DNA of 64,000 nucleotides from Candidatus Chlorohelix allophototropha (GTDB lineage Bacteria; Chloroflexota; Chloroflexia; Chloroheliales; Chloroheliaceae), in contig NZ_CP128401.1 in the NCBI RefSeq assembly GCF_030389965.1, positions 186,001 through 250,000 on the forward strand. Reading direction: 5' to 3'. The position numbers and the translations under genes are program-made. Shown piece by piece: positions 7,701-31,962 of this stretch (its first letter is position 1; every line of letters starts with the position of its first letter). The notes below the pieces were generated by a model, which ran no database searches, was not told the DNA's origin, and saw nothing but the letters and a program-made list of their open reading frames with translations.

Positions 7701-8987
7701 TCAAGTAAGCGCCCAGGCTGTGGGCAAATCCTCCCAACTGGTGGTGTAAGGCGGAGAAACCCGCCCCCGCTTCATTTGCCATTCCTGCCCTATCCCGGCA
7801 GACCCCAGCCGTAGCGTATTCCGCCCGTAACGCCGGTTCAGGCTATCCACCGTCTCCATCAACCGTCCCTGCTGCTCGATTTGCCCCACCCCTTCCCCGA
7901 AATAGCTCAACTGCACCCCCTGCTGCGACAAACCCGTCACCAGCACCCCCGCTTTGTGGTAGCGATACCCCGCCCTATAAATCTTTTCCAGCCCTATGCA
8001 AGCATAATGCGTCAGCGCAGGCGTATAATTGGTGGGTTGTGGCAACGGCAGCGTAATATGCCCGGCGTATTGTGGCTCATCCACTCGAAAAGGGCTGGTG
8101 CGCACAAACACCTGCAACACGCTTGCCGCCGACCCCTGCCGCCGCAACTTCTCCCCTAACCTTGCCGTGTAGCTTGAAACCGCCTCCTTTAATTCCCCCA
8201 CACTCTCCACCGCTTGCCCGAATGAGCGCGACGACACCAGCGCTTTCTTGGGCGACACCGCCAATTCCAGCGGAATACACCCCACCCCTCGCAACTCCAA
8301 CACGGTGCGCGCTGCCAACACCGAAAGCTGCTTTCCCACCCAGCGTTCCGGCGCATACTTCAGGTCAAATGCGCTGCAATAGCCGTAATGACGCAACAAG
8401 GTTGCCCACTGGCTGCCAACACCCCAAATATCCTCCACCTCCGTTGCTGCCAGCAACTTATCCAACTCCTCCTCGCCCCACTCCGAAATATCCAGCACGC
8501 CCTCGAACCAAGGATCTTTCTTAGCGCGTTCGTTGGCAAGCTTCGCCAGCGTTTTGGTACGAGCTACCCCCACACTCACCGGAATCCCGGTACAGCGTTT
8601 CACTTGTGCCCGCACCTCTCGGCAAAAGTCCAGCCGTTGTGCTGCCGACATCTCCGGCAAACGCATAAAAGCCTCATCAATCGAATAAATCTCAAGCTCG
8701 GTTCCAAAGCCTTGCAGCGTCTCCATCACCCGCGCCGACATATCGGCGTAGCACGTGTAATTCGAGGAAAATACTGCCACCCCCTGCTCCTCCAAAAACG
8801 CCTTGCGCTTGAAATAGGGTTCGCCCATTTTCAAACCCAACTTCTTGGCTTCGTTCGAGCGTGCCACGATATTGCCATCGTTATTTGACAACACCACCAC
8901 CGGCTTACCTTCCAGGCGGGGCTGAAATACTCGCTCTGCCGAAACATAGAAATTGTTGCAATCCACCAACGCCAGCGCCGGATTCAT
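7701..8987 (-). CDS. umuC: Y-family translesion DNA polymerase UmuC
   Basis: This is the catalytic subunit of an error-prone Pol V-type polymerase that copies past DNA lesions during the SOS response. The 428-residue length is close to E. coli UmuC (422). The first metal-binding Asp is D9 in [16 protein letters not shown]. The second acidic pair is D104-E105 in YSIDEAFM, and the palm/fingers motif [12 protein letters not shown] is intact. The helix-hairpin-helix region ([18 protein letters not shown]) and the little-finger/C-terminal part follow. ATG at 8987 has GGAGGAA 9 nt upstream. It lies 113 nt downstream of umuD on the same strand, the usual umuDC order. Control by LexA is likely through the operator found upstream of umuD. 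Confidence 0.95.
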
Positions 8988-9100
8988 ATCTCACTTCCTC
9001 CATTTTTAGAGACCGCAAAGTAAAGATAAGTAAACTCCGTATAAAACCCATTTCCAGCCTCTTAACTTAACGCTTAACGGAAAGGTTTGCAGCACTCCCC

Positions 9101-9535
9101 CTACAAATCGTGCACTACCGCCGTAACCACCCCCCAAATTTCCAGCGTCATCTCGCCCGTGACCACCAGCGGGGGGAATAGGGCATTCTCCGCCTCCAGC
9201 ACATAACCCCCCTGCCGTTTCCGCAAGCGCTTGACCGTAAACTCGCCGTCCAGCACTGCTACCACCACGCTGCCATCACGGGGCTTGAGTGAGCGATCCA
9301 CCACCAGCACATCGTGGGGATGAATCCCCGCCCCCAGCATGGACTCGCCGCTCACCCGCATAAAAAAAGTAGCGGCGGGATTTTTAATCAAGAGGCGGTT
9401 CAAATCCAGCAGGGTATCGACATAATCTTCGGCTGGACTGGGAAACCCCGCCGCTACTGCCGAGAGAAACAAGGGTAAACCCGCAAATTCAGGCAAGCGC
9501 CTTGCGCCAAAAGTCTCTGCAGCCGTGCCGCGCAT
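9101..9535 (-). CDS. umuD: UmuD-type S24 self-cleaving peptidase
   Basis: This is the regulatory partner of UmuC. RecA filaments trigger self-cleavage to UmuD', which activates the polymerase. From the ATG at 9535 it has 144 residues (E. coli UmuD 139). The cleavage site is Ala29-Gly30 in AVAAGFPSPAEDY. The catalytic Ser65 lies in RVSGESMLGAGI and Lys102 in EFTVKRLR, so the Ser-Lys dyad is complete. I prefer ATG 9535 to GTG 9544 because GGGAGG then sits 8 nt upstream, whereas GTG 9544 overlaps it. An intact cleavage site and dyad argue that it is functional rather than a LexA remnant. It has no N-terminal DNA-binding domain. Confidence 0.93.
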   Translation of the reverse strand: MRGTAAETFGARRLPEFAGLPLFLSAVAAGFPSPAEDYVDTLLDLNRLLIKNPAATFFMRVSGESMLGAGIHPHDVLVVDRSLKPRDGSVVVAVLDGEFTVKRLRKRQGGYVLEAENALFPPLVVTGEMTLEIWGVVTAVVHDL

Positions 9536-9796
9536 ACAATACACCTCCCTTAAATAAAAGCCTGACCCCTACAAACGCCCATCGTAAAGGTGCGGTGAGA
9601 AGGGGCGCGGATAACGACACCTAGTAAGAGAACTCTTAACCGTTACATACCGTCACATACCTGATGTAGCTGCCCTTTTAGCCCCAACAGCTACACGAAC
9701 ACATGTGCTATTACTGACATCATCATACCGACTTGTACCGCACCTTCAAATTCCAAAGCTACAAAAATGTAGCATTTAGCCCAATCGTGCAGGAAA

Positions 9797-12499: not shown

Positions 12500-12529
12500 A
12501 CCGGTATTACTGACCAGAGTAATACCGGT
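12500..12529. repeat. Perfect 12-bp inverted repeat with 6-bp centre
   Basis: ACCGGTATTACT at 12500-12511 is exactly mirrored by AGTAATACCGGT at 12518-12529 around gaccag. The size and symmetry suit a dimeric protein site (Rep, partition or recombinase), or a cruciform-forming element. No T run follows, so it is not a typical terminator. Confidence 0.8.
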
Positions 12530-12882: not shown

Positions 12883-13083
12883 ATGATACCAAAAAACTAT
12901 AACCCCCTAGCACACTGTGCGCGCAAGGGCGCAATTTACATCCAGCACCAGGAAATGGTTGGACTGTTTCGATTTATACGAAACGCTCAGACCAGAGAAC
13001 CGGAAGAAACCAATCTGATAACTCCTTGGCATTTACTTCTGAAAACTGAAAAGCTGGGCGTGCTTGTGGGGAGGCATAAATGA
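12883..13083 (+). CDS. Small protein translationally coupled to the replication gene
   Basis: A 66-residue ORF from the ATG at 12883 with AGAGAG upstream. It ends in an ATGA overlap with the rep start at 13080, the usual sign of a true coupled gene. The sequence (AHCARKGAIYIQHQEMVGLFRFIRNAQTREPEE) is basic, then acidic, with no family I recognise. By position it could be a small regulator or accessory factor of the replication protein. Confidence 0.5.
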   Translation: MIPKNYNPLAHCARKGAIYIQHQEMVGLFRFIRNAQTREPEETNLITPWHLLLKTEKLGVLVGRHK

Positions 13084-16000
13084 AAATTCCAACCACAATT
13101 AAGCTAAGTGTGTGCAAAACCATTATAGCCGCGCCGGGTGATAAACCTGACTTTGGTGATTCTTCAAAGAAATGGAATGAGCTAACCAGGAAGCAACAAG
13201 ATACCCGTAATCAGCTCACTTTCCACTTTGAGAATGTTGAACTAACCCTTAAGCAAGTAGAGAACTACATCAACGCCGGCTACACCCTGTCAACCCAACA
13301 CACCGGGGGCGAGCAGTGCAGTAAGAAAGTAAATAAAGATGGTTCCCCGCACAAGTGCAAAATGCATCGGCTTCAGAATAACTTTGTTTGCGGTCAAATT
13401 ATTCAAATCGACTTCGACCACGCTGCAAATGAAGCTGAAATACTAAATCACCAACTTATTAAGTTAAATGCTGCAATCGTTTACCGGACACCCTCCTATA
13501 AGCCAGATAACCCACGCTTACGGGCGCTATTTGTGCTAGAAACACCTATTACCAATAAAGACTATTGGCGTGAGGCTGTTACCGCGCTTATGTTTGCTTT
13601 CGGGCAAGCTGCCGACCAAGCATGCAAAGATGCCGTAAGACTTTTTTACGGGTGCAAAGGAGGAGTTATCGAAACTAAGTCGGTAATTTTGCAGGACAAG
13701 GAACTCACCAAACTGATAGGGCAATGGGAAAAAGCCAAACCCGGTGAAGCGGCAATAGCCCGCATCAGAGCTTCCAGCGCGGCAGACTACCCTCAAGCTA
13801 GCGCCCGTTCTGATAATACACCCTCGACTCATTACGGAATTGAAGTGCTAAGCCATACTTTCAATCAATTGGTAGAAGTTCGAAAAGACTATTGGCACAC
13901 CCTTAACGGGGTGTGTTATCTGATTGGACGATTAGTTGGAGGGGGTGAAATCAATTACAACGAGGCTCGCGCCGCCTTACGCGACGCAGTAGCGAATTGG
14001 CCTGAAGGAAAGTTGGGGGAAGATCACACTCACCGCACTATAGATACCGCGCTGAATGATGGGGAGGCACATCCCTATTATGTGCCTGAATTATTGGATA
14101 TGCCAGCCTTGCGCCGGGATAAAATCATCAATGAGCGCTATTTGCCTGATATTACACCCACTAAGAAAGTTACCCTGATAAAAAGCCCTAAAAATACCGG
14201 CAAAACTGAGATGATCGGGCGCTTAATCCGAGGCGCTGCTGCTGAGACTTCATTTCTTGCCCTTGGACACCGACAATTACTACTAAAGCAGGTAGCGAAA
14301 CGGTGGGGACTGGTTAATTATCAGGATTTTAAGAGTAATAAGGATGATAGATACGATGTGGATAAACGCGGCTTGAGTGAACAAAGGCGGCTTGCTATCT
14401 GCGTCGATTCGCTTATTCACCTTCTAAAGGCTGCTGAAAGTGATTTTATCCTACTAGATGAAATTGAGCAGATTCTTAGACACTTTGCCGGGAATACCAT
14501 CAAGAATAATCGTAAGCAGGTTTTTGAAATGTTTTGTGCCCTTCTTAAAAAGGCTGAGCACATAATCTGCCTTGATTCCGACCTCAGTCCGATTACTTTT
14601 GAATTTTTTTCACAGTTGTTTGGCGTCGAAAACATCGAAGTTATCGAGAATAGATACGTACACACTGATGCCGCGCCGATAGTACGTTATCCTGATCGAC
14701 CAAGTATAGAGGCTGCTCTGTTGGAGTCTATCAAGCTGGGTAAATATTGTTATGTAGCCACAAACAGCAGAACAGAAGCTGATTATATGGTGCTGATGAT
14801 ATCTGAAAAACTGGATAAGAAGCCTGTAGTTCTAAAAGTTACATCGTTGGAAAGTAGTGACGAATCCACCCGTAATATTCTAAAAGACCCCGCTAAGAAC
14901 TTGCTCATGTATAATGTGCTAATAGCCTCGCCCAGCTTAGGCACTGGCATAGACTTTAACTTTGAACACTTTGAAGAAACCTTTGTACTCGGTTCATGGG
15001 GTAGCACAAATCATAAAGACTTGTTGCAACATGCCGCGCGTAATCGCAAGGCTAAGGTTATAAAATGCTGGATACAACCGGGTAAGCGCTACACACCAAC
15101 TGACTGTAAGGTTATCGAGAAAGGACTAGTTACCAAAGCTTTAGCAGCCTATGGAAAGAGCGAAATATTCCAGATGTTTACCAGTGGCGTATTAAATAGC
15201 GAGCAAGAGCTGGCTTTTATCAAGCTGTTGACGAACATTTGGGTAGCCGAAAATGCCAGCCACAATAACCTTGAGGCTAATTTTTATAATCAGGCTGAAA
15301 AAGAAGGTCATAAAATCAGCGATGCCCTCCCGCACCCTGAAAGGGAGGACGTAAAAAAATTGCGCCAACAGGTTAAGAAAGGAATTAAGGTAGAGCAATT
15401 AACCGCAATTCTTAAGGCAGAAGATATGACGGACGAAGAAGCTCGTAAGCTGAAGAACAAAAACTACAAAACAATGTCTGACTGGGCTAAAGCTAATCGC
15501 TACAGAATACAGCAGTTTTATAAAGCTGAAGTTACAGCCGAATTGGTGGAACTGGACAATAAGGGAAAATTCATGTCCGCGCTTGTCAATTATATGATGC
15601 TGACCAGGCGTTATGATCCTCAAAAGCGTGGTCAAACAGAGCTCGATGATCCTCAAAAGCTTATTACTGATTGGAAAGCTTATACTGCCGCAAATAAGAC
15701 GCGGGGCGATGTGCTGGCCGCTGCTGGGCTAGTCAACTCAGCAAAATGGACGCAAGATGTGATCGAATTTGATATCGCCGTCGTTTTATCCACTGAAGAA
15801 CTAGCAAAGGGTAAGTTTGTGGACTGGTGTTTTGCTCACAAAGCCGAAATTACGCACAATTTGGAGATAATCCTGAAGGCAGATTTTGCAAAAAAACCGA
15901 TTGAATTGCTCTCTCGGGTATTGCAACAGGTTGGATTGAACTTCACTTTAACGCGCCTCGGACCAAGAGGTAACCAGACTAACTACTACCGAATAAACCA

Positions 16001-16103
16001 AGAACGATTGCAAACGATTGAGAAATTGGCAATTCATAAAGCTACGATTATAACTGTAGATTTTGCCCAAAGTGCGGAATTCGCGACCGCTGTCAATTGG
16101 TAG
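13080..16103 (+). CDS. Plasmid-type replication protein: primase-like N-terminus plus SF2 helicase (CyRepA1-like)
   Basis: A 1007-residue initiator-type protein. The N-terminal third looks like an archaeo-eukaryotic (PrimPol-like) primase: IIQIDFDHA, then YRTPSYKPDNPRLRALFVLE and CKDAVRLFYGCKGG. The middle is a helicase: Walker A SPKNTGKTEMIG near residue 367, LAICVDSLIHLL, DEAD-like LLDEIEQILRHFAGNT, and a C-terminal lobe with SPSLGTGIDFNFEHF and LLQHAARNRK. The order and the LDEIEQ.LRH motif resemble the cyanobacterial plasmid replication family CyRepA1 and herpes origin-binding-type helicases. ATG at 13080 is preceded by GGGGAGG. Iterons begin 510 nt after its stop, supporting a role in initiating replication of a plasmid or integrated element. 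Confidence 0.75.
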   Translation: MKIPTTIKLSVCKTIIAAPGDKPDFGDSSKKWNELTRKQQDTRNQLTFHFENVELTLKQVENYINAGYTLSTQHTGGEQCSKKVNKDGSPHKCKMHRLQNNFVCGQIIQIDFDHAANEAEILNHQLIKLNAAIVYRTPSYKPDNPRLRALFVLETPITNKDYWREAVTALMFAFGQAADQACKDAVRLFYGCKGGVIETKSVILQDKELTKLIGQWEKAKPGEAAIARIRASSAADYPQASARSDNTPSTHYGIEVLSHTFNQLVEVRKDYWHTLNGVCYLIGRLVGGGEINYNEARAALRDAVANWPEGKLGEDHTHRTIDTALNDGEAHPYYVPELLDMPALRRDKIINERYLPDITPTKKVTLIKSPKNTGKTEMIGRLIRGAAAETSFLALGHRQLLLKQVAKRWGLVNYQDFKSNKDDRYDVDKRGLSEQRRLAICVDSLIHLLKAAESDFILLDEIEQILRHFAGNTIKNNRKQVFEMFCALLKKAEHIICLDSDLSPITFEFFSQLFGVENIEVIENRYVHTDAAPIVRYPDRPSIEAALLESIKLGKYCYVATNSRTEADYMVLMISEKLDKKPVVLKVTSLESSDESTRNILKDPAKNLLMYNVLIASPSLGTGIDFNFEHFEETFVLGSWGSTNHKDLLQHAARNRKAKVIKCWIQPGKRYTPTDCKVIEKGLVTKALAAYGKSEIFQMFTSGVLNSEQELAFIKLLTNIWVAENASHNNLEANFYNQAEKEGHKISDALPHPEREDVKKLRQQVKKGIKVEQLTAILKAEDMTDEEARKLKNKNYKTMSDWAKANRYRIQQFYKAEVTAELVELDNKGKFMSALVNYMMLTRRYDPQKRGQTELDDPQKLITDWKAYTAANKTRGDVLAAAGLVNSAKWTQDVIEFDIAVVLSTEELAKGKFVDWCFAHKAEITHNLEIILKADFAKKPIELLSRVLQQVGLNFTLTRLGPRGNQTNYYRINQERLQTIEKLAIHKATIITVDFAQSAEFATAVNW

Positions 16104-16106
16104 CTG

Positions 16107-16139
16107 ACACTTTTATATATATGTATATATATAAAGTGT
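16107..16139. repeat. AT-rich palindrome just after rep
   Basis: ACACTTTTATATATA at 16107-16121 mirrors TATATATATAAAGTGT at 16124-16139. It lies 4 nt after the rep stop. It could terminate rep transcription or act as an easily melted element beside the iteron array. Confidence 0.6.
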
Positions 16140-16259
16140 TGACTACACAACAAGCTCAGCTCCTTGGAGTAGGTCTGGCTCTTTTCATCCAAACGGAGTG
16201 GGGGCGCAAAAGTGGCGAATCGAGCAAGAGAGCGAAAGGGAGTGAAAAATGATGGTTTT

Positions 16260-16562
16260 TGATATGAAAATGGAGAAAAATGGGGTGAAAATGAGGTTTT
16301 GCATTAACGGCGTGTGAATTTGGTGTGAATATTGTGTGAATCTGCGCAACTTTAGCGAAAATGGTACGATCTGGCGCTTGGGGCGAGGATCGGGCAGCGG
16401 GGAGGTTCTTGCCGAACCGGCACGAAACGAGGAAATGGCAAGAATCTGGGTGGAATCTGGACTTGAGAGCGCAAAAACGGGTCGTGCGAGAAGGTTGAAG
16501 GGCAAAAATGGGTCGATTTTATATGAAAATGAGGAAAAATATATGAAAATGGAGCGTTTTGC
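16260..16562 (+). repeat. Degenerate purine-rich direct repeats (TATGAAAATGGAG type)
   Basis: Related copies are seen near 16261 (gatatgaaaatggagaaa), 16284 (gtgaaaatgagg), 16520 (tatatgaaaatgaggaaa) and 16541 (atatgaaaatggagcg). They lie between rep and the palindromic iterons and may be a second class of Rep-binding repeats. No gene is supported here. Confidence 0.45.
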
Positions 16563-16614
16563 CCTGCCCTGCGGATTTTGGAGCGTTTCGGGCTGACCTG
16601 CCCTGTGCCGAGGG

Positions 16615-16757
16615 GGTGGTACGGATTCTGTACCACCCCCCTACCTAGGTGGTACGGATTCTGTACCACCCCCTACCTAGGTGGTACGGATTCTGTACCA
16701 CCCCTTACCTAGGTGGTACGGATTCTGTACCACCTGTAGTACGTTTTTCGTACCACC
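16615..16757 (+). repeat. Palindromic iteron array, probable origin of replication
   Basis: Four identical 23-bp copies of a palindromic unit, GGTGGTACggattctGTACCACC, begin at 16615, 16648, 16680 and 16712. The period is 32-33 bp (three helical turns), so all copies face one side of the helix. They are separated by 9-10-bp linkers of the type cccctaccta. A fifth, degenerate copy at 16735-16757 keeps GTACG-ttttt-CGTACCACC. Such phased repeats next to a replication gene are typical of plasmid origins. The linkers are too short and too alike for a CRISPR array. Confidence 0.8.
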
Positions 16758-18030: not shown

Positions 18031-21000
18031 GTGGATGCGTTCAAGTTGCGGGGTGAAGTTGTCGCAAACTATTCGGATTACATCAGCAGTTTCCTTAATA
18101 TCTTAGATGACAGAATAAAACTATTCTTAGATACTAAATTGGCCGAAGGAGTGCTCTGGCCCGAACCCCTCCTGCAACTAAGTCCCGCCTACGAGGCAGC
18201 CGGAACCATCGAAGAGTTGGTAAGCCAAAATATACTTCACCCCCTTTGTAGCAGACTATTCAGGGCTGATGGCAAATCCTTGCGTCTATATAAGCACCAG
18301 CGCACCGCCATAGAAATTGCCGAGCAAGGTCATAACTACGTAGTTACCACCGGCACCGGCTCCGGCAAAAGTCTCACCTATCTAATACCCATAATTAATT
18401 ACATACTCCAGCACCAGCCGGAAAAGGGCAAAGTCAGGGCTATTATCGTATACCCGATGAACGCCCTTATTAATTCACAGGAACAAGCCCTAAATAACTT
18501 TGTAAAGAATTTAGGCTCAGATAACTGCCCGATCAGGTACAAGCGTTACACCGGTCAGGAAAGTGACACTGAAAAGCGGGCAATCCAAGAAAACCCCCCA
18601 CATATACTCCTCACCAACTATGTAATGCTGGAACTAATGCTTACCAGACCAGAAGAACGCGCCTTTGTGGATAGCGCCAGTAGCGCTTTGCAATTTCTGG
18701 TACTGGATGAACTGCATACCTATCGAGGAAGGCAGGGGGCGGATGTGGCGCTCTTGGTCAGACGCTTGCGAGAGCGCTGCGGAAACCAGCAGTTACAATG
18801 CATTGGCACCAGCGCCACTATGTCGAGTGGGGAAACTCGCACAGAAAGAGCGCGAGCGGTAGCCCAGGTTGCCACCAAGATATTCGGGGCTGCAGTCAGT
18901 CTGGAACATGTAGTGGATGAAACCCTGCGGTGGGGAATTTCCCAAGCCACCGACCCAACATCCCAAGAACTAACTAAAGCCCTCAACAGCCCCTTGTCCC
19001 CCTCTTTGAACTGGGAGGAACTCAAGCAAAACCCCCTCGCCACCTGGATCGAAAAAACCTTTGGTCTGCGAGAGGATGCCGACGGCAAGTTGCGGCGCAG
19101 AGAACCGGTTACCCTCTGGCAAGGCGCCCAGCAGTTGGCAGAGTTGACCGGATTAACAGCAAGTACTTGTGCTACTCGCTTACAAATGCTATTCAACTAT
19201 GGCAGTCAGGTAAAAAGCCCTGAGAACAATCCCGGCTTTGCTTTCAAATTGCACCAATTCTTTTCGCAAGGGGGGGCAATCTACTCCACCATCGAAGCGC
19301 CAGACAAACGCTATCTAACCCTCGAAGGACAGCACTATGCGCCGGGAGAGGACACTGAAAAGCTACTGTACCCGATCGTATTCTGTCGGGAATGTGGGCA
19401 AGAATATTACCTTTGCACCTATCATACCGATAAAGGCGCCGTTATACCGCGTCCCCCCTTTCCCCGGGATGAACAAAATACCACAGAGGTAATAGACGGC
19501 TATTTGCTGGTAGACGCTGCGGGCGTATGGTCTGAAGAAAATACTGACCTGCTACCCGAAACCTGGTTCAAGGAACTAAAACGAGGGCGTGAACTAAAAA
19601 AAGAATATGCCGCCTATAAACCGCGCCGCCTAAAAGTGAGTACCGCTGGAACTCTGCTGGCGAATGAAAATCAGCAAAACCTAATCTCCTGGTTCATGCC
19701 AACCCCCTTCCTGACGTGCTTGCGGTGTGGAGAAGTCTATACTAAAAGACAGGTCAGCGACTTCGGAAAGCTATCCCGTTTGAGCAGTGAAGGGCGCAGC
19801 ACCGCTACGACCTTGCTGGTTTTATCGGCGGTCAAGCAAATGCAGCAAGATGGTAGCCTTGACAAAACCGCTCAAAAACTGCTGAGTTTTACAGATAATC
19901 GCCAAGACGCTTCCTTGCAGGCCGGACACTTTAACGACTTTATCGAGGTTGCCCTGCTCAGATCGGCCATCTTCAAAGCGCTAACCAAAAATACCGTAGG
20001 GTTGGATCACACTCAGGTAGCCGGTGCAGTCGTCACAGAACTTGGACTAACCGAAGAAACCTATGCGGTGGAAGCCAGTCCGGGTGGGATTGGTCCACTG
20101 GCCCGCCGCAACCAGAAAGTGCTACAAGAACTAATAGAATACCGCATATATGAGGATTTAAGACGGGGTTGGAGAGTAAACCAGCCCAATCTGGAACAGT
20201 GCGGACTGCTGTTGGTGGACTACGATAGCCTTGAAGAGGTCTGCCAGAGTGAAAAATTATGGCAAGGGCATGCCGTGCTGGCAGAAACCACACCGGAAAT
20301 ACGCCTGGGAGTTGTAAGGGCAATACTAGATTATATGCGGCGGGAATTAGCAATCAGCGCCGAGTGTCTGGAACCGGATAATCAGGAAGCGCTCAAAAAG
20401 CGGGTGCGCATAGCATTAAAGGAACCATGGACTTTTGACGAAAATGAATTCCTCTACTCTTCCACTCGCTTTGTCCAGCCGGGTGTGCCAGTTTCCGGCC
20501 AAGGAGAGCGGAGCTTTGGTCCAAACACTTCACTTGGGCGCTATCTGCGCTCTTGCAACACGTGGCCAACCCTGACCAAGAATCTCGACACCGCCGAATA
20601 TCTAATACTGGCAAAAAGCCTTGTAGAAGTGCTGCGAAAGACCGGGTTTCTGGTAGAAGTAGCCGGGGCAGAAGGCAAGGCGGTTCAATTGCGCAGTGAT
20701 TCGCTTATCTGGAAAGTGGGCGATCGGAATGCACTAATGCGAGATCCAGTCCGCACCAGACGGATGAATTTAGCTTACGAGCGGAACTCCAATCCCAATC
20801 GCTTCTTCGCGAAATTCTATCAGGAAACTGCCGCCTCGCTACAGGGAATTGAAGGCCGAGAACATACCGGGCAGGTTGTCCAAAAGCTCAGAGAAGCGCG
20901 AGAACAGAAATTTCGGGAAGGTAATCTAGCCGCCTTGTTTTGTTCCCCCACCATGGAACTTGGTATAGACATCTCCAATCTCAATGCGGTACATCTCAGG

Positions 21001-23103
21001 AACGTACCGCCAACACCGGCCAATTATGCCCAACGTAGCGGTCGAGCCGGACGGAGTGGGCAACCGGCTTTTGTGGCCTCCTACTGCTCTATAGGAAGTG
21101 GGCACGACCAGTATTATTTTCGCCGACCGGAGCGTATGGTAGCGGGAGTAGTGGCGCCCCCGCGACTCGACCTCGGCAATGAAGAATTGGTGAGCGCGCA
21201 TGTACACGCCATTTGGCTTGCCGTAACCGGTTTAAAATTGGGGCGTTCCATGATAGAAGTGGTGGATACCGCTGCTCTAACTAATAACTTTCCACTCCGC
21301 TCGGAGGTAGCCCTTTCCATCGAATTAAAAGCAGAGCAAGTGGAAAAATGCCTGAAAACCTGTCAATCCATCTTGAGAACCGATGAGCAAGATCTGGCAC
21401 AAACAGGCTGGTATTCCGAAGAATGGCTAAAGAATGTCATTACCGCTGCGGCACAAGCCTTTGATCTAGCTTGCGAACGCTGGCGGGAACTTTATACGGC
21501 GGCAGAACGACAATTACAGGAAGCCAGAGCAGATATTGATCGGCGTTACCAACAGCGTACCGCCGATAGCGATATCGAGGAAGCAAAGCGGCGCGAAAGT
21601 GAAGCCCTCAAACAGAAAGACTTGCTTTGCAACACCGGGCAAGATGGTGAGACCGATTTCTACCCTTACCGATATTTTGCCAGCGAAGGCTTTTTACCCG
21701 GCTATAACTTCCCGCGCCTGCCGGTACAGGCTTTCCTCTCCACCGGTAAAGAAAGCGGCACTTTTCTATCTCGACCGCGCTTTTTGGCTTTGACCGAATT
21801 CGGCCCCCGCAATGTAATTTATCATGAGGGTCGAAAATACCGGGTAACCCGCACCATTCTGCCGGCTGGAAGCGCTCAGCAACGGCTTATTACAGCCAAG
21901 CTATGTAATAGTTGCGGTTATTTTCATGACAGCCCCACTACCGTGGAACTATGCGAGCAGTGCGGCACCCAAATGGATGGCAGCAATAGTCTAACCACCG
22001 ACAAACTGTTTGAAATGACCACAATGGCAACCCAACGCATCGAGCGCATCACCAGCGAAGAAGAAGAACGAACCAGGCAGGGCTACCACATCACCACTCA
22101 TTACCGCTTTCCGCCGGGTAATCGCAGTATACATGCGACGGCTCGAGACGAAGGAGAAGAAGCGTTAATCCACCTGTGTTACGCCCCGGCTGCCACTCTT
22201 TGGCGAGTCAATCACCGCTGGCGCCGTTCTACGGTACCGGGTTTTACCCTTGATCTAAAACGAGGTATCTGGGCTAAAAGACCGGGCGACGAAGACGACG
22301 AAGCGCTGGGCACCGATCAGCAACAGGTGCTAAGTGGAGTACGGGTGCTGGTAAGGGATACCCGCAATTTGCTGTTGGTTAAACCAGAAGATAACAGCGA
22401 AGATAGCTTTCTGGCGAGCTTGCAGTACGCCTTACAAAGGGGCATTGAGGCTATTTTTCAGGTGGAAGAGCAAGAATTAGCTTCCGAGCGCATCGGGGAA
22501 CGAACTCATCGGCAAATCCTATTCTGGGAAGCAGCCGAAGGAGGCGTTGGGGTACTAAACCGGATTGTCAAAGACGAGAAAACGCTGGCGGAAGTGGCAA
22601 AAGCCGCGCTGGAAATCTGCCATTTCGACCCGCTGACCGGACAGGAAAAACCTGAAGAGGTCAAGGATTGCGGGAGAGCCTGCTACCGTTGTCTGCTCTC
22701 GTATTCCAACCAACCGGATCACCCCTTACTCAACCGCTATCTGGTTAGGGACTTTTTACTAAAGCTGGTAAATGGTACTACCAAGGATTCTGATAGCCAG
22801 AGCTTAACTAGTTTTGAGGGGCAACAACTAGGGGCTTTTGCGGCAAAGGTTTATGCTCATCTAAAAACTTCTGGGAGAAAATTACCTGACAAGTACCAGC
22901 CAATTTTAGATGGTGTTGGTATCACGCCGGATTTTTATTACAGTGGGGCTTATATTTGCCTGTTTTGTATCGATGATTACACACCTATTGATCTTAAAGT
23001 GGTAAAGAATGAATTGGAAGATTCAGGTTACAGGGTGCTGATTATCAATCAGGCGGATAACCTAGAGTCACAATTAACCCAGTTGGATACCTGGCTTGGA
23101 TAA
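18031..23103 (+). CDS. Giant DEAD/H helicase with DUF1998 (MZB) module: DrmA-DrmB-fusion-like or DruE-like defence helicase
   Basis: A 1690-residue SF2 ATPase. Motif Q-like YKHQRTAIEIA, Walker A TGTGSGKS at 107-114 and DELH-type Walker B LVLDELHTY at D226-E227 are present. So are GTSATM (motif III) and, far downstream, SPTMELGIDISN and the arginine-finger motif QRSGRAGRSGQ at 1001-1011. Cys pairs (CRECGQ, CLRCGE, CNSCG at 1292, CEQCG) suggest zinc binding. The C-terminal DUF1998/MZB signature CGRACYRCLLSY begins at 1547. The last 100 residues contain PDFYYSGAYICLFCIDD, resembling a Vsr/DUF559-type nuclease fold with an incomplete active site. In DISARM, DrmA (helicase) and DrmB (DUF1998) are separate; here both parts are in one chain. 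GTG start with AAGGAAGG upstream; first gene of the operon. Confidence 0.85.
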   Translation: MDAFKLRGEVVANYSDYISSFLNILDDRIKLFLDTKLAEGVLWPEPLLQLSPAYEAAGTIEELVSQNILHPLCSRLFRADGKSLRLYKHQRTAIEIAEQGHNYVVTTGTGSGKSLTYLIPIINYILQHQPEKGKVRAIIVYPMNALINSQEQALNNFVKNLGSDNCPIRYKRYTGQESDTEKRAIQENPPHILLTNYVMLELMLTRPEERAFVDSASSALQFLVLDELHTYRGRQGADVALLVRRLRERCGNQQLQCIGTSATMSSGETRTERARAVAQVATKIFGAAVSLEHVVDETLRWGISQATDPTSQELTKALNSPLSPSLNWEELKQNPLATWIEKTFGLREDADGKLRRREPVTLWQGAQQLAELTGLTASTCATRLQMLFNYGSQVKSPENNPGFAFKLHQFFSQGGAIYSTIEAPDKRYLTLEGQHYAPGEDTEKLLYPIVFCRECGQEYYLCTYHTDKGAVIPRPPFPRDEQNTTEVIDGYLLVDAAGVWSEENTDLLPETWFKELKRGRELKKEYAAYKPRRLKVSTAGTLLANENQQNLISWFMPTPFLTCLRCGEVYTKRQVSDFGKLSRLSSEGRSTATTLLVLSAVKQMQQDGSLDKTAQKLLSFTDNRQDASLQAGHFNDFIEVALLRSAIFKALTKNTVGLDHTQVAGAVVTELGLTEETYAVEASPGGIGPLARRNQKVLQELIEYRIYEDLRRGWRVNQPNLEQCGLLLVDYDSLEEVCQSEKLWQGHAVLAETTPEIRLGVVRAILDYMRRELAISAECLEPDNQEALKKRVRIALKEPWTFDENEFLYSSTRFVQPGVPVSGQGERSFGPNTSLGRYLRSCNTWPTLTKNLDTAEYLILAKSLVEVLRKTGFLVEVAGAEGKAVQLRSDSLIWKVGDRNALMRDPVRTRRMNLAYERNSNPNRFFAKFYQETAASLQGIEGREHTGQVVQKLREAREQKFREGNLAALFCSPTMELGIDISNLNAVHLRNVPPTPANYAQRSGRAGRSGQPAFVASYCSIGSGHDQYYFRRPERMVAGVVAPPRLDLGNEELVSAHVHAIWLAVTGLKLGRSMIEVVDTAALTNNFPLRSEVALSIELKAEQVEKCLKTCQSILRTDEQDLAQTGWYSEEWLKNVITAAAQAFDLACERWRELYTAAERQLQEARADIDRRYQQRTADSDIEEAKRRESEALKQKDLLCNTGQDGETDFYPYRYFASEGFLPGYNFPRLPVQAFLSTGKESGTFLSRPRFLALTEFGPRNVIYHEGRKYRVTRTILPAGSAQQRLITAKLCNSCGYFHDSPTTVELCEQCGTQMDGSNSLTTDKLFEMTTMATQRIERITSEEEERTRQGYHITTHYRFPPGNRSIHATARDEGEEALIHLCYAPAATLWRVNHRWRRSTVPGFTLDLKRGIWAKRPGDEDDEALGTDQQQVLSGVRVLVRDTRNLLLVKPEDNSEDSFLASLQYALQRGIEAIFQVEEQELASERIGERTHRQILFWEAAEGGVGVLNRIVKDEKTLAEVAKAALEICHFDPLTGQEKPEEVKDCGRACYRCLLSYSNQPDHPLLNRYLVRDFLLKLVNGTTKDSDSQSLTSFEGQQLGAFAAKVYAHLKTSGRKLPDKYQPILDGVGITPDFYYSGAYICLFCIDDYTPIDLKVVKNELEDSGYRVLIINQADNLESQLTQLDTWLG

Positions 23104-23145
23104 TTGGGCGTTATTATTCTTATCAAATTAAGGGAGACAAGAGAA

Positions 23146-24315
23146 ATGCAACCATTCGCCGGGTACCTGCTTGAAAGAACAATAAGTCCTGAGCTAATTG
23201 AAGGTCTTAAAACGGGTTTGTACCAACTATATGGTGGCACCGTGCGGATAGCACCCGGTTTCGAGGGAGCAGGACAGATCGTGCGGCATCTTATTCCTAT
23301 ATCTGGCGATGTTTCAACCTATGCTTCAGGCTTTACTCATATGCTTCCGCTTGGAAGCAAGGGGTTTACTACTCTTCTAGCTAATACCAATTCAGCTAAC
23401 CAGGCAACCCAATTATTGCTGGGCTACGGAAGTCAGCTTATGACAATGGCCAGCTTGAATCTGGCTGTAACTGCTGTGGGTTTCGCAGTTCTTACTTATA
23501 AATTGGATCAATTGAGTAAAAAACTAGAAGAAATCAAAAATGATGTAAAGGCAGTCCGACAACTTCTAGAACGACAGGAATTAGCAAAATTGCGCACGGC
23601 ATTGGCAGATCTTGAGAGGTTGCCTGATTTTAGTGGTTCCGATCGCCTTGGCTTTATTAATAATGCCAGGGTAACCTTGTCACGGTTGGCACATCAATAT
23701 GCGGAATTGCTTGCTCAGGAAGAAGAAGAACATCGTGACATGGCATATGAGGAATTGTTTTGTATAGCAAGTCTTTCCCATGTTCGCTGCTACGCCGAGC
23801 TTGGCGAGTTTCAGTTAGCCCAAAAGGAAATGGCAAAAACACTGAAAACCTGGAGAACAGAAGCAAGAAAAATTGCCGACAATCTATTAGGAAAAGATCC
23901 TTCCAGATATTTGCATAGCGATTTTGTAAATGAAATACCGATCACCACTGTAATTGATTGGTTGAATTTTGCCAGAGAAGAAGAAAAAGGTTTTGAGTGG
24001 CTTGAGTATTTACGAAGTAAAATGCCCCCGTACTACAAGCAAAATATTACGCTATCCCTGAATTTGCCCGTGCAGTTTCCTGAACAGGACAAGCTGGAGG
24101 CGGAGAAGAAATTTGTAATACCCTCATTAAATAAGCTAATCACGCGTGATAAAGTTTTGGAAGGGTATGTGACCCAATACGCTTTACTTGGAGCGCTAAA
24201 GGTTACACCCACGGAATTCGAGAAACAAATAGCCGCTGCGGCTCCAGAAAACGCTGTAGATGGCTACCTAATCCTTGAGCCGGTCTCTCAGCCAACCACA
24301 GAACAGAAGGGATAG
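23146..24315 (+). CDS. Unrecognised coiled-coil protein of the defence operon
   Basis: 389 residues from the ATG at 23146. GGGAG lies about 9 nt upstream; the longer frame from TTG 23104 has no such site. The N-terminus (FAGYLLERTISPELIEGLKTGLYQ) is followed by a Gly-rich part. A hydrophobic stretch (about 105-130, MTMASLNLAVTAVGFAVLTY) may be a membrane segment or buried helix. A Lys/Glu coiled coil (LDQLSKKLEEIKNDVKAVRQ) and a helical repeat-like body complete it. No catalytic motif is visible. It lies 42 nt after the helicase, with 1 nt before the SNF2 gene, and occupies the place where DISARM loci carry drmC or another accessory gene, but shows no phospholipase-D HKD motif. A sensor or effector role is a guess. 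Confidence 0.7.
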   Translation: MQPFAGYLLERTISPELIEGLKTGLYQLYGGTVRIAPGFEGAGQIVRHLIPISGDVSTYASGFTHMLPLGSKGFTTLLANTNSANQATQLLLGYGSQLMTMASLNLAVTAVGFAVLTYKLDQLSKKLEEIKNDVKAVRQLLERQELAKLRTALADLERLPDFSGSDRLGFINNARVTLSRLAHQYAELLAQEEEEHRDMAYEELFCIASLSHVRCYAELGEFQLAQKEMAKTLKTWRTEARKIADNLLGKDPSRYLHSDFVNEIPITTVIDWLNFAREEEKGFEWLEYLRSKMPPYYKQNITLSLNLPVQFPEQDKLEAEKKFVIPSLNKLITRDKVLEGYVTQYALLGALKVTPTEFEKQIAAAAPENAVDGYLILEPVSQPTTEQKG

Positions 24316-24316
24316 C

Positions 24317-27262
24317 ATGAGCGCATATTCAGTAGGGTCACTGGTACGCTGTCGAGAACGGGAATGGGTAGTGCTGCCCTCCGAATCGGATAACTTGTTG
24401 CTGCTGCGGCCATTAGGTGGGTCAGAAAAAGAGCAGATAGGGATATACTTGCCCATCACCGAGGCGTTGGGCATAGATAAAATTGAACCGGCTACCTTCC
24501 CCGAACCGGACATAAACCTGACCGGCGATCATACTTCCGGTCGCCTCTTGCGAGATGCTACTCGCCTGACCTTCCGCAGTGGCGCTGGTCCTTTCCGGTC
24601 GTTGGGCAGGATCAGTGTGCGTCCCCGCCCCTTCCAGCTTGTGCCCCTGCTTATGGCGTTACGCCTCGACCCGGTGCGGCTACTAATTGCCGATGATGTC
24701 GGTATCGGCAAAACCATCGAAGCGGGACTAATTGCCCGTGAACTGCTAGACCGGGGGGATGCCAAAAGATTGGCAGTGTTGTGTCCACCCCACCTGTGTG
24801 AGCAGTGGCAAAGAGAGCTATCCGAGAAATTTGCCTTGGAGGCGGTGGTGGTGCGTTCCGGCACTTTGGCACAACTTGAACGCACTTTGCCCCCCGGCGA
24901 TATCAGTGTGTATGAGCATTACCCGGTGCTGGTGGTCAGCATTGATTTTGTGAAATCTGATAGGCAGCGAGATAGCTTCATTCGAAGCTGCCCTGAACTG
25001 GTAATTGTAGATGAAGCCCACACTGCTACTCGCTCTAGCGGTACCGGCGGTACTCAGCAACGACACGAGCTGATGCGTGAATTAGCGAAAAACCCGGAAC
25101 GGCACCTGCTGCTGCTTACTGCTACCCCTCATAGCGGGGTGGAGGATGCTTTCCTCTCCCTGTTGGAGCAACTGGACGAAACTTTTGGGCAGATGGATTT
25201 AACCCATCTGACAGAACCGGAGCGGAAAGCGCTAGCTCGCCATTTTGTGCAACGGCGGCGGGCGGATGTGGAGCGCTGGTTGGGGGAAGATACTCCCTTC
25301 CCGCAGCGCAAATCGCGTGAAGTAACATATTCTCTGGCTAAATCTCCTGAGTACCGCAAATTATTTGAAGACATCTACGATTTCGCCCGTGAACTGGTGA
25401 AGGATACCGGCGGTGGGATGTCGGGCTGGAAACAACGCGTGCGTTATTGGGCAGCATTGGCGCTGTTACGCTGTGTGATGAGCAGTCCCGCAGCGGCGGA
25501 AGCTACCCTAAAAGCCCGGTTAGGACGTTTACCGGAGCAGGGGCTAGAAGGACAAACAGCGGCAGACACAGACACGCTCTTTGCCCAGTATGTGCTAGAC
25601 CTGAGCGAACAAGAAGTGACTCAGGATTTTGAACCAACCACCGTGGTAGAAGAGGGCGCACCGCTGATGGGGAGCAGCGAGAAACAGAAATTGCAGGCTT
25701 TTGTGCGACGTGCCAAAGGGCTTTACGGAGATAGCGACCCAAAAGCGGCAGTGGCAGCCCAAGAAGTGGCGGCTCTAATCCGGGGCGGCTACCAACCGAT
25801 TGTATATTGTCGTTACATCGCCACTGCTGAATACCTTGCCGGGGAATTAAAGCGACGCTTTGGTAGGCAATGGTCGGATTTGCAGGTAATTGCGGTAACG
25901 GGCGCCAGTTCTGAGGAGGAAAGAGAACAGCGGGTAGCCGAACTGGCGGAAAGCCCGCGCCGGGTGCTGGTGGCAACCGATTGTTTGAGCGAAGGCATTA
26001 ACCTACAGGAGAGCTTTAACGCGGTAGTACATTACGACCTCCCCTGGAATCCTAACCGTTTAGAGCAACGCGAAGGACGGGTAGATCGCTATGGACAGCC
26101 TTCCCTAGAAGTGCGGACTGTGCTGCTGTTTGGAGACGACAACCCGATTGATCAGGCAGTGCTGAAAGTGTTGCTCAGAAAGGCGGTCACTATTCACAAG
26201 AGTCTGGGTATTACCGTACCGCTGCCGGTAGATAGCGAGAGTGTGGTGGAGACGGTAGTGCGCTCCCTCTTTAAAGAAGATTCGCGTCCAAAGCAGCTTA
26301 CCCTGTTTGACACCGATAGTCAGTTGAGCTTTGAGGATGCGGAAGGGTTCAGCGTAGATGAACTGCACCAGAGTTGGGATAAGGCGGTGGAGCGAGAGAA
26401 AGAGAGCCGTACCCGCTTCGCCCAACACTCTATCAAACCGGAGGAAGTGGCGCAGGAATTGTATGAAACCGATTTGGTGTTGGGAAATGCTGCGACGGTT
26501 GCCACGTTTGTGCAGAGCGCCTGTGAGCGGTTGAATGCGCCACTGGTTCAGGTTAAGCAGGGTACTACCCTCAAAAACACCCTCTGGCGACTGCCGTTCT
26601 CGCAACTACCGTTGCCGGTGAGGGAGAAAATAGGCGCTAGCTTTGCCCCCAAACGTGGGGCAGCTACTCCTGCGGAAGTGTTGCTTACCTTTGATATACC
26701 TGTGTCGGAAGGGGTGCATTTGATTGGGCGTTTGCATCCTCTCACCGAGGCATTGGCTGAATATTTGCTGGACACCGCCCTTGAAGGCGCTACTCCACCC
26801 TTGCCTGCCAGTCGCTGTGGGGTTATCCGGACGGCTAATGTCACTCGGCGCACCAACCTTTTGTTATTGAGGATGCGACTTTTGATTGAGTCTCCCGGTA
26901 AGACTCCGATGCTGGCGGAAGAACTGGTGGTGGCGGGATTCGAGGGACGCCCCGGCAACCTGAGTTGGTTGAATGAAGAAACCGCCCGTAAGTTGCTGGA
27001 TGAAGCCATACCTGCCGGAAATTTGGCAGCCTCTGAGATTAGCGAACGGCTGAGTGAGACTTTAAGCTGGATAAGAGAGCTTAAGACAGAGTTGGAAGCA
27101 AAGGCGGAGAAAAAAGCAGGGGCGCTATACGAGTCGCACCGGCGAGTGAGGCAGGCTACTCGAACCGGGCGCGTCACGGTGCGTCCGCAACTGCCGCTGG
27201 ATGTGCTGGGGCTTTACGTTTACTTACCTGTTCCTAAGGGGGTTATGAAGGATGAAGGATGA
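24317..27262 (+). CDS. SNF2-family helicase, DrmD-like
   Basis: 981 residues from the ATG at 24317, 1 nt after the preceding stop with AAGGG upstream. A longer frame from 24275 would overlap the neighbour. SF2/SNF2 motifs are complete: IADDVGIGKTIEAGL (Walker A lysine K132), CPPHLCEQWQREL (Ia), DEAH at 232-235, LLLTATPH (III), LVATDCLSEGINLQ (V) and LEQREGRVDRYGQ (VI, near residue 585). The long C-terminal part is typical of DrmD/HepA-like proteins. DrmD marks class 1 DISARM. SNF2 enzymes translocate on double-stranded DNA, which fits a role in moving along invading DNA. Its last codons (VMKDEG) lie inside the repeat that starts the four-helix-bundle cassette, so its native C-terminus may have been replaced by the insertion. 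Confidence 0.85.
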   Translation: MSAYSVGSLVRCREREWVVLPSESDNLLLLRPLGGSEKEQIGIYLPITEALGIDKIEPATFPEPDINLTGDHTSGRLLRDATRLTFRSGAGPFRSLGRISVRPRPFQLVPLLMALRLDPVRLLIADDVGIGKTIEAGLIARELLDRGDAKRLAVLCPPHLCEQWQRELSEKFALEAVVVRSGTLAQLERTLPPGDISVYEHYPVLVVSIDFVKSDRQRDSFIRSCPELVIVDEAHTATRSSGTGGTQQRHELMRELAKNPERHLLLLTATPHSGVEDAFLSLLEQLDETFGQMDLTHLTEPERKALARHFVQRRRADVERWLGEDTPFPQRKSREVTYSLAKSPEYRKLFEDIYDFARELVKDTGGGMSGWKQRVRYWAALALLRCVMSSPAAAEATLKARLGRLPEQGLEGQTAADTDTLFAQYVLDLSEQEVTQDFEPTTVVEEGAPLMGSSEKQKLQAFVRRAKGLYGDSDPKAAVAAQEVAALIRGGYQPIVYCRYIATAEYLAGELKRRFGRQWSDLQVIAVTGASSEEEREQRVAELAESPRRVLVATDCLSEGINLQESFNAVVHYDLPWNPNRLEQREGRVDRYGQPSLEVRTVLLFGDDNPIDQAVLKVLLRKAVTIHKSLGITVPLPVDSESVVETVVRSLFKEDSRPKQLTLFDTDSQLSFEDAEGFSVDELHQSWDKAVEREKESRTRFAQHSIKPEEVAQELYETDLVLGNAATVATFVQSACERLNAPLVQVKQGTTLKNTLWRLPFSQLPLPVREKIGASFAPKRGAATPAEVLLTFDIPVSEGVHLIGRLHPLTEALAEYLLDTALEGATPPLPASRCGVIRTANVTRRTNLLLLRMRLLIESPGKTPMLAEELVVAGFEGRPGNLSWLNEETARKLLDEAIPAGNLAASEISERLSETLSWIRELKTELEAKAEKKAGALYESHRRVRQATRTGRVTVRPQLPLDVLGLYVYLPVPKGVMKDEG

Positions 27263-27690
27263 GCGATGAATTATGAATTTGGAAGCAAGTGATTTGAGGA
27301 AGCGCACTAAAGCTTTCGCGCTCAGAATCATCAAATTATATACTACGCTACCTAAATCGGTAGAAGCGCAGGTTATTGGCAAACAGTTGCTTCGTTCTGG
27401 CACATCGGTGGGAGCGCACTATGCGGAAGCATATCGAAGTCGTTCAGATGCTGAATTCATTAGTAAGCTCGAAGGTGGCTTACAGGAGTTAGAAGAAACA
27501 ATTTACTGGGTTGAATTGTTAGTAGAAGCTGAAATTATCCCTGAAAATAGATTAAGCGAATTGTTATCAGAAGCTAATCAGCTAATCTCAATCTTTGTTG
27601 CCAGCGTCAAAACAGTAAAGGATAAACACAGGAAATGACAGTAGTGAGAAATCCTGCTTTACTCATAATTCATAATTCATCTTTCATCAT
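27244..27690 (+). mobile_element. IVS-like cassette: S23-type gene between inverted repeats
   Basis: The left repeat (27244-27278) has GATGAAGGATGAGCGATGAAT-type sequence and ends in GATGAATTATGAAT. The right repeat (27662-27690) carries its reverse complement (ATTCATAATTCATC, then tttcatcat). Between them lies only the four-helix-bundle gene, whose ATG is inside the left repeat. The same repeat family occurs three times inside the next gene. The layout recalls the intervening sequences of bacterial 23S rRNA, which also hold an S23-type gene between complementary arms. Mobility is inferred. Confidence 0.55.
27273..27638 (+). CDS. S23-type four-helix-bundle protein (23S rRNA intervening-sequence protein family)
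   Basis: 121 residues matching the TIGR02436/S23 pattern: DLRKRTKAFALRIIKLYTTLPK, then the family hallmark LLRSGTSVGAHYAEAYRSRSDAEFISKL, and LEELEETIYWVELL-like helices. Relatives are encoded in 23S rRNA intervening sequences and include the Avd accessory protein of diversity-generating retroelements; they form nucleic-acid-binding pentamers. No reverse transcriptase or template/variable repeat is seen nearby, so an Avd role is not supported. The gene begins 11 nt after the SNF2 stop and is framed by inverted repeats, which marks it as a cassette inserted in the operon rather than a core defence component. Confidence 0.9.
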   Translation: MNLEASDLRKRTKAFALRIIKLYTTLPKSVEAQVIGKQLLRSGTSVGAHYAEAYRSRSDAEFISKLEGGLQELEETIYWVELLVEAEIIPENRLSELLSEANQLISIFVASVKTVKDKHRK

Positions 27691-27708
27691 TACAACAGGT
27701 TGGAATAT

Positions 27709-30700
27709 ATGAGTTTCAGTTGTGTCACATCCGAAGGAAATTTGATACCCGCCGATCTGCTGGAGCAGATTGCGACGGGGGAGGCGAAGGCGCAGCTACC
27801 CGCCGATTTTGGGCTGGATAAGAGCCGCCGCCTCACCGATGAGATTGCCACCGCTTGGGGGGATGCCCGCGCTTATTGGGAGGCTTTCCGGCGACGCTTG
27901 CTGCGCTTGAAAGAGCAAGACCCCGGCACCAGCGATACGCGCCAATATTGGGTCACGCCTCTTTTGGAGTCGCTGGGCTATACCGTGACGTTTATGCCCA
28001 CTGCCAGCGTGGTAAACAACCACACTTACGCTATTTCCCACCGCGCCGGGAAGGACGAGAATTTCCCGCCCATCCATATTGAAGGCTTCCGCCGTTCGTT
28101 AGACCAACGCCCTGAATCGGGCAGACCGCGCCTGTCGCCTCACGCTCTGATGCAGGAATACCTGAACAATACCGAGCATCTGTGGGGGATTGTTACCAAC
28201 GGGCGACAACTGCGACTGCTGCGCGATTCTTCCCGTACCACTCGTCTGACCTTTGTGGAGTTTGATTTACAGGCGATGCTGGAGGGGGAGAAGTTCAGCG
28301 AGTTTGCTTTGTTTTATCGGCTGTTGCACCGCACCCGCTTGCCCGAAGGGATGGACGATGCCCCGAAATGCTTGTTGGAACAGTATCATCAGCAAGCGTT
28401 GGAGGCGGGCGGTAGAGTGCGCGAGGGTTTGCGGGATGGCGTAGAAACGGCGTTGCGGGAGTTGGGGAATGGCTTCCTGCGTCACTCCGCTAATTCTGCC
28501 CTGCGCGAGGCGGTGGCAAGCGGCAAATTGTCTGCCCTTGATTATTATCGTGAGCTTTTGCGGCTGGTCTATCGCTTGTTGTTCCTGATGGTGGCTGAGG
28601 AAAGAAAGCTCATCGGCGGCTCTGAGCAGAGCTTGAAACTCTACATGGCGCATTACAGCGTGGCACGTTTGCGGAAGTTGGTGGAGCAATCGAGTGTGGG
28701 CAGAGGGCGTTACGGCGATTTGTGGCTAGGCTTGCTCACTACTTTCCGGCTGTTGCAGGATGAGCAGGGCGCGGGGGCGTTGGGAATTACTGCGCTGGAC
28801 GGCGATTTGTTTGGAGCGGAAGCCTCCCCCCATCTGGAGAATACGCAACTACTGAACGAGCAGTTGGTGAAAGCCGTTCGCGCCCTTTCGCTCTACCGCG
28901 ATTCGCAGACCAAGGCTTTGCGCCGGGTGAATTATAGCGCGTTGGATGTGGAGGAATTGGGCAGCGTTTATGAGAGTCTGCTGGATTTCCGCCCGGTCAT
29001 TGGGAATTATGAACTAGGAATTATGAATGATGAACGGGGAAAGGGGAGCGATGAAAAATCAGCCTCCGTAAAGCATAATTCATCGCTCATAATTCAGCGT
29101 TTTTCGTTTGATTTGGTGACGGGGACTGAGCGCAAGACCACCGGCTCATATTACACTCGTCCGGAACTGGTGCACGAGTTAATCAAGAGCGCGTTAGAGC
29201 CGGTGCTGGAAGAGCGGTTGAAGTCGGCGGGGGCAGACCGAGCTAAGCGTGAGCAGGCGATTCTGGACATTACGGTGTGCGACCCGGCGTGCGGGTCTGG
29301 TCACTTTTTGCTGGCGGCGGCGCGGCGGTTGGGGCGAGAACTGGCGCAGGTACGTTCCGGCGAAGACCAGCCCAACCCGGAGCAGTTCCGGCGAGCGGTG
29401 CGCGATACCATCACCCGTTGTGTGTATGGGGTGGACTTGAACCCGCTGGCGGTGGATTTGTGCAAGCTGGCGTTGTGGCTGGAAGGGCATAACAGCGGGA
29501 TGCCGCTATCGTTTTTGGATAGCCATATTCGTTGCGGCAATAGTCTGGTGGGGGCGAGCGATGCGCTGGTGAAGCAGGGCATCCCGGACGAAGCCTATAC
29601 GGCGGTGACGGGCGACAATAAGGCGGTGGCAAGCGCGTTCAAGAAGCGCAACAAGCAGGAGCGCGAACTTTACCTGAAGCATGAGATGGTGCAGTCGAGT
29701 CTGTTCGAGCGCAGCAAAGAAACTGGCACGCTGGACACGCTGGCGGGTTTTGCTTTGCGGTTGGAGAAAATGCCGGACGAAGCGGTGGCACAGGTACGCG
29801 CCAAGAAAGAGGAATACGAGCGGCTACACGGTAAAGGTACGCAGTGGTGGGACAAGTTGACCACCTACAACCTGTGGACGGCGGCTTTCTTTACCAAGCT
29901 GGAAAAGAGCGATGACCTGCGTATTCCCACTACCAACGATATTTTCCAGCCGAGTACGCGGCACGGACTGGCGATACAGGGGGCATACGGACTGGCGCAG
30001 GAGTTGCGCTTTTTCCACTGGGAACTGGAGTTTCCTCACATTTTTGCCCAAAGGGTCAACGATGAGCGAGGAAGGGGAAGGGGGAACGATGAACGAGGAA
30101 TTATGAATGATGAACGGGGAAACCAGAATTCATCCTTCCGAAGCGGTTTTGATGTGGTGCTGGGCAACCCTCCATGGGAGCGCATCAAGCTACAGGAGCA
30201 GGAACACTGGGTAGATGACCCCTATATCAGCAAAGCCGCCAACAAAGCCGAGCGCGAGAAGCGTATTAAGGAATACCGCGAAAGTCCTGACAAGTTAAAA
30301 ATAGCGCGTGTGGCAAAATTCGATGCCGCTAAATACCAAGCAGAAGCAGAGAGCCGTTTTATTCGCGCATCATGCCGCTTCCCACTAACGGCGGTGGGGG
30401 ATGTGAACACTTACGCCCTGTTTGCCGAACAAGCACGTAACTTGTTGCACCCATATGGACGCGCCGGAGTGATTGTGCCAACTGGAATCGCCACCGATGA
30501 TACCACCAAAGCTTTCTTTGGCGATTTAATTGAGAAACAAAGCCTTGCCCGAATTATTGGTTTTGAGAATGAGGCATTCATTTTTTCAGATGTACATCAT
30601 GCTTTCAAGTTTTGTGCTTTTACGATTAGCGGCTCTACTTCAAAAATTGAATCAACCGATTTTGCATTTTTAATTCGATATTTTGAAGAAATAGAAGAGC

Positions 30701-31908: not shown

Positions 31909-31962
31909 CAATATCTTACATCATTAAATATATTCTTATTCTGACTTTAGAGGGGTTGACGC

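Follow-up and report, generated by a model that had tools for sequence, protein, structure and literature searches.

The window analysed here, a 64-kb stretch of 'Candidatus Chlorohelix allophototropha' (C3:186001-250000), carries at its positions 13080-16757 what we interpret, with a probability of about 0.85, as a plasmid-type replication module, in which an initiator gene (rep) is followed by an origin (Table 1). This interpretation is based on the location of the region on a separate circle, on the encoded protein, which passes the CyRepA1 model and has a PrimPol-like fold with the catalytic acids kept, on homologues located beside parA in a genome of the same family and on a Bradyrhizobium plasmid, and on an AT-centred dyad with GTTGACTAC that is limited to two rep genes in 6.1 Mb. 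The mode of replication is probably theta. Modules of this kind are known, and this one is set apart as a variant by its primase partner, by an AT-centred element common to two replicons and by its palindrome array.

Table 1. Features of the candidate replication module (positions in the window)
Feature	Position	Strand	Remarks
rep gene, 1007 aa	13080..16103	+	ATG start, intact open reading frame; N-terminal AEP/PrimPol-like domain and UL9/CyRepA1-type superfamily 2 (SF2) helicase
AEP domain, about residues 50-220	13227..13739	+	AlphaFold model, Foldseek, PHROGs primase families
CyRepA1/UL9-type helicase domain, residues 361-955	14160..15944	+	NF042913, PF02399, PDB herpes chains
AT-centred dyad GTAGCTGACAC-TTTTATATATATGTATATATATAAA-GTGTTGACTAC	16100..16146	.	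candidate for a melting site and its inverted initiator boxes; overlaps the stop codon of rep
Purine-rich (67%) top-strand spacer	16190..16560	.	strongly strand-asymmetric; about three GTGTGAAT 11-mers (16312-16341) and ATATGAAAATGGAG repeats
Four identical 23-bp palindromic units GGTGGTACGGATTCTGTACCACC	16615..16734	.	period 33/32/32 bp, about three helical turns
Degenerate fifth palindromic unit	16736..16757	.	abuts the fourth, with about 23 bp between their starts instead of 32

Genomic setting and nature of Rep

The assembly consists of five contigs of 2961161 (C1), 2453413 (C2), 375274 (C3), 241389 (C4) and 54957 bp (C5). According to PMC10972752, the replicons of the closed L227-S17 genome are all circles, namely chromosomes of 2.96 and 2.45 Mb, a 375-kb chromid, and plasmids of 241 and 55 kb; both the circularity of C3 and its name "chromid" are taken from this source, no overlap being found between the ends of the contig. 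The rep-palindrome region thus sits on an autonomous circular replicon, as the original prediction had supposed when it stated that the region is, or was, such a replicon. The neighbouring defence operon, expected there to be plasmid-borne or part of an integrated plasmid, is therefore chromid-borne and indeed extrachromosomal. Continuity with the chromosome and a rep disrupted in relatives had been named as the signs that would speak against a replicon; C3 shows no such continuity, but the homologue on C5 is disrupted (see below).

Rep residues 361-955 match the NCBIfam model CyRepA1 (NF042913) with 325 bits for a cut-off of 200, and CyRepA1 is experimentally required for the autonomous replication of pSYSA (PMC9978351). 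Residues 358-528 match Pfam Herpes_ori_bp (PF02399, E 5.7e-13), although only over profile positions 45-216 of 820, the C-terminal DNA-binding domain of UL9 being unmatched in Rep, and the helicase part also matches chains of the herpes simplex virus origin-binding protein in the PDB (E 2e-4). In residues 1-345 no Pfam family was found at E<=1, DUF3854 included, whereas the same comparison detects DUF3854 in the CyRepA1 proteins of pSYSA (E 3e-50) and Gloeobacter (E 2e-24). PHROGs primase families match residues 95-190, and an AlphaFold model, for which seven homologues were aligned, has fair confidence over residues 50-220 (a single-sequence model of the whole Rep, with a pLDDT confidence score of 34, was not used). 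The sole significant Foldseek match of this model is the cyanophage S-2L PrimPol 6zp9 (probability 1.00, E 6e-6, TM-score 0.53 by target); human PrimPol comes fifth in the list and is not significant. D111-x-D113 (motif I), R146-x-R148 and D184 (motif III) are invariant in 7/7 aligned homologues. Taken together, the fold of the archaeo-eukaryotic primase (AEP) superfamily, the D-x-D and D184 residues, the NF042913 match and the absence of DUF3854 indicate that Rep is, by its sequence motifs and predicted fold, an AEP primase fused to a UL9-type helicase and not a canonical CyRepA1. Fusions of AEP with UL9-like SF2 helicases were known before from the All3500 family of PrimPol-PV1, as reported by Kazlauskas et al. 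2018 (PMC5862659).

The AT-centred dyad and the palindrome array

The core of the dyad (16111-16135) has 25 bp, all A/T but one G, between imperfect arms in which 8/11 positions are complementary; as single-strand DNA the element folds better than 200/200 shuffles (z -4.8). On the 55-kb plasmid, where the related rep ends, an 88-bp tandem repeat (C5:50982-51115) carries a similar dyad in two copies. The succession of TATATATATA and GTTGACTAC within 12 bp occurs at three places only in 6.1 Mb, namely the C3 dyad and the two C5 copies, and the local alignment of the C3 and C5 dyads scores 44, while shuffles reach no more than 31 and other C5 segments no more than 30. The flanking DNA otherwise aligns poorly between the two replicons. 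The dyad shared by the ends of the two rep genes is a newly found element, and we favour, with moderate confidence, a module in which it forms part of the origin. Concerning the spacer, 0/1065 non-coding 300-bp windows of the chromid were as purine-asymmetric as the interval between rep and the array; this asymmetry is suggestive only, because the window was picked as the best of that interval.

The four identical palindromic units are located at 16615-16637, 16648-16670, 16680-16702 and 16712-16734. With at most one mismatch, GTGGTAC-N7-GTACCAC is found at these four places and at the fifth unit only in the 6.09-Mb genome, and on the 375-kb replicon no other family of dyads with 7-bp arms reaches four copies; the array exceeds chance by far. 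Most of the C3 tandem arrays scoring at least 60 lie in apparent coding repeats (WD40 etc.), a 60-bp x 2 repeat at 271.4 kb being left out, and a tandem array of high identity stands at the 3' end of rep on both the chromid and the 55-kb plasmid. Each palindrome can fold into a strong hairpin. The Rfam search gave no match. The palindrome pattern was also found in 53 viral contigs, at one site each and never as an array, which was taken as chance, and among plasmids one 31-bp match, likewise judged to be chance, was the only similar DNA. The original prediction had described four identical units with a 32-33-bp period and a degenerate fifth, and this description proved accurate; its CyRepA1-like primase-helicase is retained for the helicase half and revised for the primase half. 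It had noted neither the AT-centred dyad, nor the purine-rich spacer, nor the non-CyRepA1 nature of the N-terminal domain.

From the observed gene, domains, folds and repeats and the element shared with C5, we infer the following binding and enzymatic steps. Rep, perhaps as a dimer, would bind the AT-centred dyad at its arms and would also attach, itself or through a partner, to the five palindromic units; the AT core would then melt, the Rep helicase would widen the bubble, the Rep primase domain would lay the first primer and host enzymes would extend the fork. Whether it is Rep itself that binds the palindromes we regard as evenly balanced. By analogy with classical iterons, the array would most likely set the copy number, by handcuffing or titration, or add binding sites.

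Candidate origins of the chromid and alternative explanations

The cumulative GC skew of C3 is lowest at 197.9 kb, a point 3.0 kb from the middle of the module, and highest roughly half the circle away, at 20.0 kb. Five candidate modules were compared, and the one described here is the nearest to this minimum; block permutations of the skew range gave P values of 5e-5 to 0.02. GC skew as proof of an origin was nevertheless rejected: in the C1 samples it does not follow dnaA near position 1, and the minimum of the 241-kb plasmid (C4) does not lie at its HTH_36 modules. A strong dnaA match is found on chromosome 1 only (C1:664-1146) and none on the 2.45-Mb C2, which carries HTH_36-ParAB modules at 0.46 and 1.16 Mb.

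Besides these two discordant skews, several observations weigh against the module as an origin. The chromid contains two HTH_36 and ParAB modules (C3:154.6-159.0 and 277.8-281.2 kb), a third ParAB with parS-like palindromes (19.9-22.9 kb) and a second primase-helicase pair (C3:307805-310292), while no ParA/ParB pair is found within about 40 kb of its rep. Clear DnaA boxes are missing at the candidate origin; the sole exact box of the module is inside rep, at 14357, and 18 near-matches are present in the window for 13 expected. The palindromes were not found on the 55-kb plasmid in the genome search (at most one mismatch), no palindrome array was found beside the rep homologue of the sister genus, and the 55-kb plasmid persists although its own rep is split. 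Given the several replication and partition modules on one circle, the chromid is best read as fused plasmids, and we hold the chances to be even that the module described here is its main active origin. Two of the competing modules have further features: three parS-like palindromes AATTGTTTTCGCGAAAACAATT (C3:19921, 20843 and 22874) surround the third ParAB pair, at the maximum of the cumulative GC skew, and in the second primase-helicase pair an AEP primase gene, whose product is 31% identical to the N-terminus of Rep, is followed by a gene for a 497-aa P-loop ATPase.

The 55-kb plasmid can be regarded as a natural experiment. Its related AEP-helicase rep (C5:46650-51045, i.e., L036:6650-11045) is split by a 1217-bp insertion sequence with an 8-bp duplication, ATTTCACA, and the same element occurs at C3:311 kb. 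The plasmid also bears an HTH_36-ParA module (26.6-28.3 kb), where its skew minimum lies without being significant (P 0.17). Since C5 persists with a split rep, it could be maintained by this HTH_36-ParA module, by the chromid Rep acting in trans on the shared element, or by coexisting intact copies. It is conceivable by analogy, if doubtful, that Rep and the AT dyad correspond, in a bacterium, to the initiator and origin of herpesviruses, with a UL9-type helicase fused to its own primase acting on inverted boxes around an AT spacer, and that the chromid Rep keeps the 55-kb plasmid via the shared doubled element.

The same persistence favours a passenger or reserve replicon, in which the module would have arrived with a fused plasmid and the HTH_36-ParAB modules would replicate the circle, rep being intact but silent, conditional or secondary. 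HTH_36 genes are indeed found near ParA/ParB on C2, C3 (two), C4 (two) and C5, the skew minimum of C5, although not significant, falls at such a module, and multiple Reps per plasmid are common in cyanobacteria (PMC10899382). However, the skew minimum of the chromid is located at the rep module and not at the HTH_36 modules, neither rep nor its repeats show damage, and the HTH_36 proteins are only putative initiators here; we consider a passenger or reserve replicon unlikely.

Two other explanations concern the repeats. If the array were a partition site (parS/centromere) or the operator of another protein, Rep would act at the AT dyad alone, which is compatible with a replicon. The units are palindromic dimer sites, they are absent at the homologous C5 rep, and near the ParB genes at 158 and 280 kb no separate repeated dyad is present; but the lack of parAB within 40 kb, the parS-like palindromes that the third ParAB already possesses and the place of the array directly behind rep, typical of origin repeats, make this possibility rather unlikely. 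It is very improbable that the AT dyad and the hairpin palindromes are transcriptional features only, i.e., terminators or RNA stabilisers behind rep. Despite the strong hairpin possible in each palindrome, no T-tract follows the array or the dyad, the terminator scan was negative there, a stem of AT only is a poor terminator, and C3 and C5 have sequence, not shape alone, in common.

Among the neighbouring genes, the composite defence operon (window 18031-37675) encodes a DruE-like helicase, a JukB-like protein, a DpdE/DrmD-like SNF2 helicase, a DrmMI/type IIG-like methyltransferase and a PDC-M26A-like protein. Genes for a UmuC-like polymerase and a UmuD-like peptidase (window 7701-9544) precede the rep region, and a perfect inverted repeat of 12 bp, ACCGGTATTACT, whose loop has 6 nt, also lies upstream of rep (window 12500-12529). 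On the 241-kb plasmid, a long CRISPR-like array with the repeat GTTTCAATTCCTCAATCGGAATTAGGTTCAATCTGAC extends over C4:47571-52878.

Relatives of Rep and comparison with known systems

No Rep homologue was found in the 399 other Chloroflexota genomes sampled. In its own family, one of four further genomes (G403) has a homologue, on an 8673-bp contig (L115:2913-6974) and beside parA; this protein of 1353 aa combines an AEP-like N-terminus (34% identity), DUF3854 (E 4e-10) and a UL9-type helicase, and thus two primase-type domains in one protein. A helicase-domain tree unites the proteins of C3, C5 and G403 in a single clade (support 99/98). The other relatives spanning both halves are from Alphaproteobacteria (Afipia, Hyphomicrobiaceae, a Bradyrhizobium plasmid) and from one metagenome-assembled genome labelled Klebsiella, and they have a Cys/His ribbon between primase and helicase. 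As read from translations, the alphaproteobacterial rep homologues (L065, L070, L066 and L078) adjoin a comM-like gene, which is cut short in the Afipia loci, where integrase-like open reading frames also occur; to judge from these sequences, the alphaproteobacterial rep loci are probably integrated elements. A search with the Rep helicase alignment confirmed no viral contig, and, among the other rep homologues, that of L067 is followed by an AT-spaced dyad of a different kind, nothing else comparable being seen. The sequences of the Chloroheliaceae Reps, with AEP alone or AEP and DUF3854, suggest that UL9-type Rep helicases may swap their primase partners while the helicase is kept. Outside cyanobacteria, we know of no CyRepA1-type origin that has been assigned to a specific DNA element. 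An element common to the rep ends of two replicons in one cell makes the initiator-origin pair directly testable, and a vector derived from this pair could be the first for a phototroph of the Chloroflexota that has a type I reaction centre; the apparent multi-replicon fusion of the chromid bears on how chromids arise.

Like the C3 Rep, CyRepA1 of cyanobacterial plasmids (Slr7037, pSYSA) is a single large, plasmid-borne primase-helicase protein with a UL9-type helicase (NF042913), but the pSYSA protein has the Toprim-related DUF3854 where the C3 Rep has AEP, and its initiation is thought to take place upstream of rep and to be RNA-controlled, iterons going unmentioned (PMC9978351). The All3500 family (PrimPol-PV1), likened here by domain layout only, has both domain kinds in the same order as the C3 Rep, whereas the cited part of its account describes no origin (PMC5862659). 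The alphaproteobacterial AEP-Zn ribbon-helicase proteins (Bradyrhizobium pBb144S4a, Afipia) are collinear with Rep over the whole length at 20-27% identity; unlike Rep, they have the Cys/His ribbon, and no palindrome array was found beside them. Herpesvirus UL9 is a related helicase and its OriS also has inverted boxes around an AT-rich spacer (PMC12543377), a likeness of layout only; the resemblance of the proteins is limited to the N-terminal helicase part, and UL9 has no primase. Finally, the module shares with classical iteron plasmids the phased repeats and the AT-rich stretch beside the initiator gene, but its units are palindromic and located downstream of rep, and its initiator is a primase-helicase instead of a winged-helix RepA/RepE.

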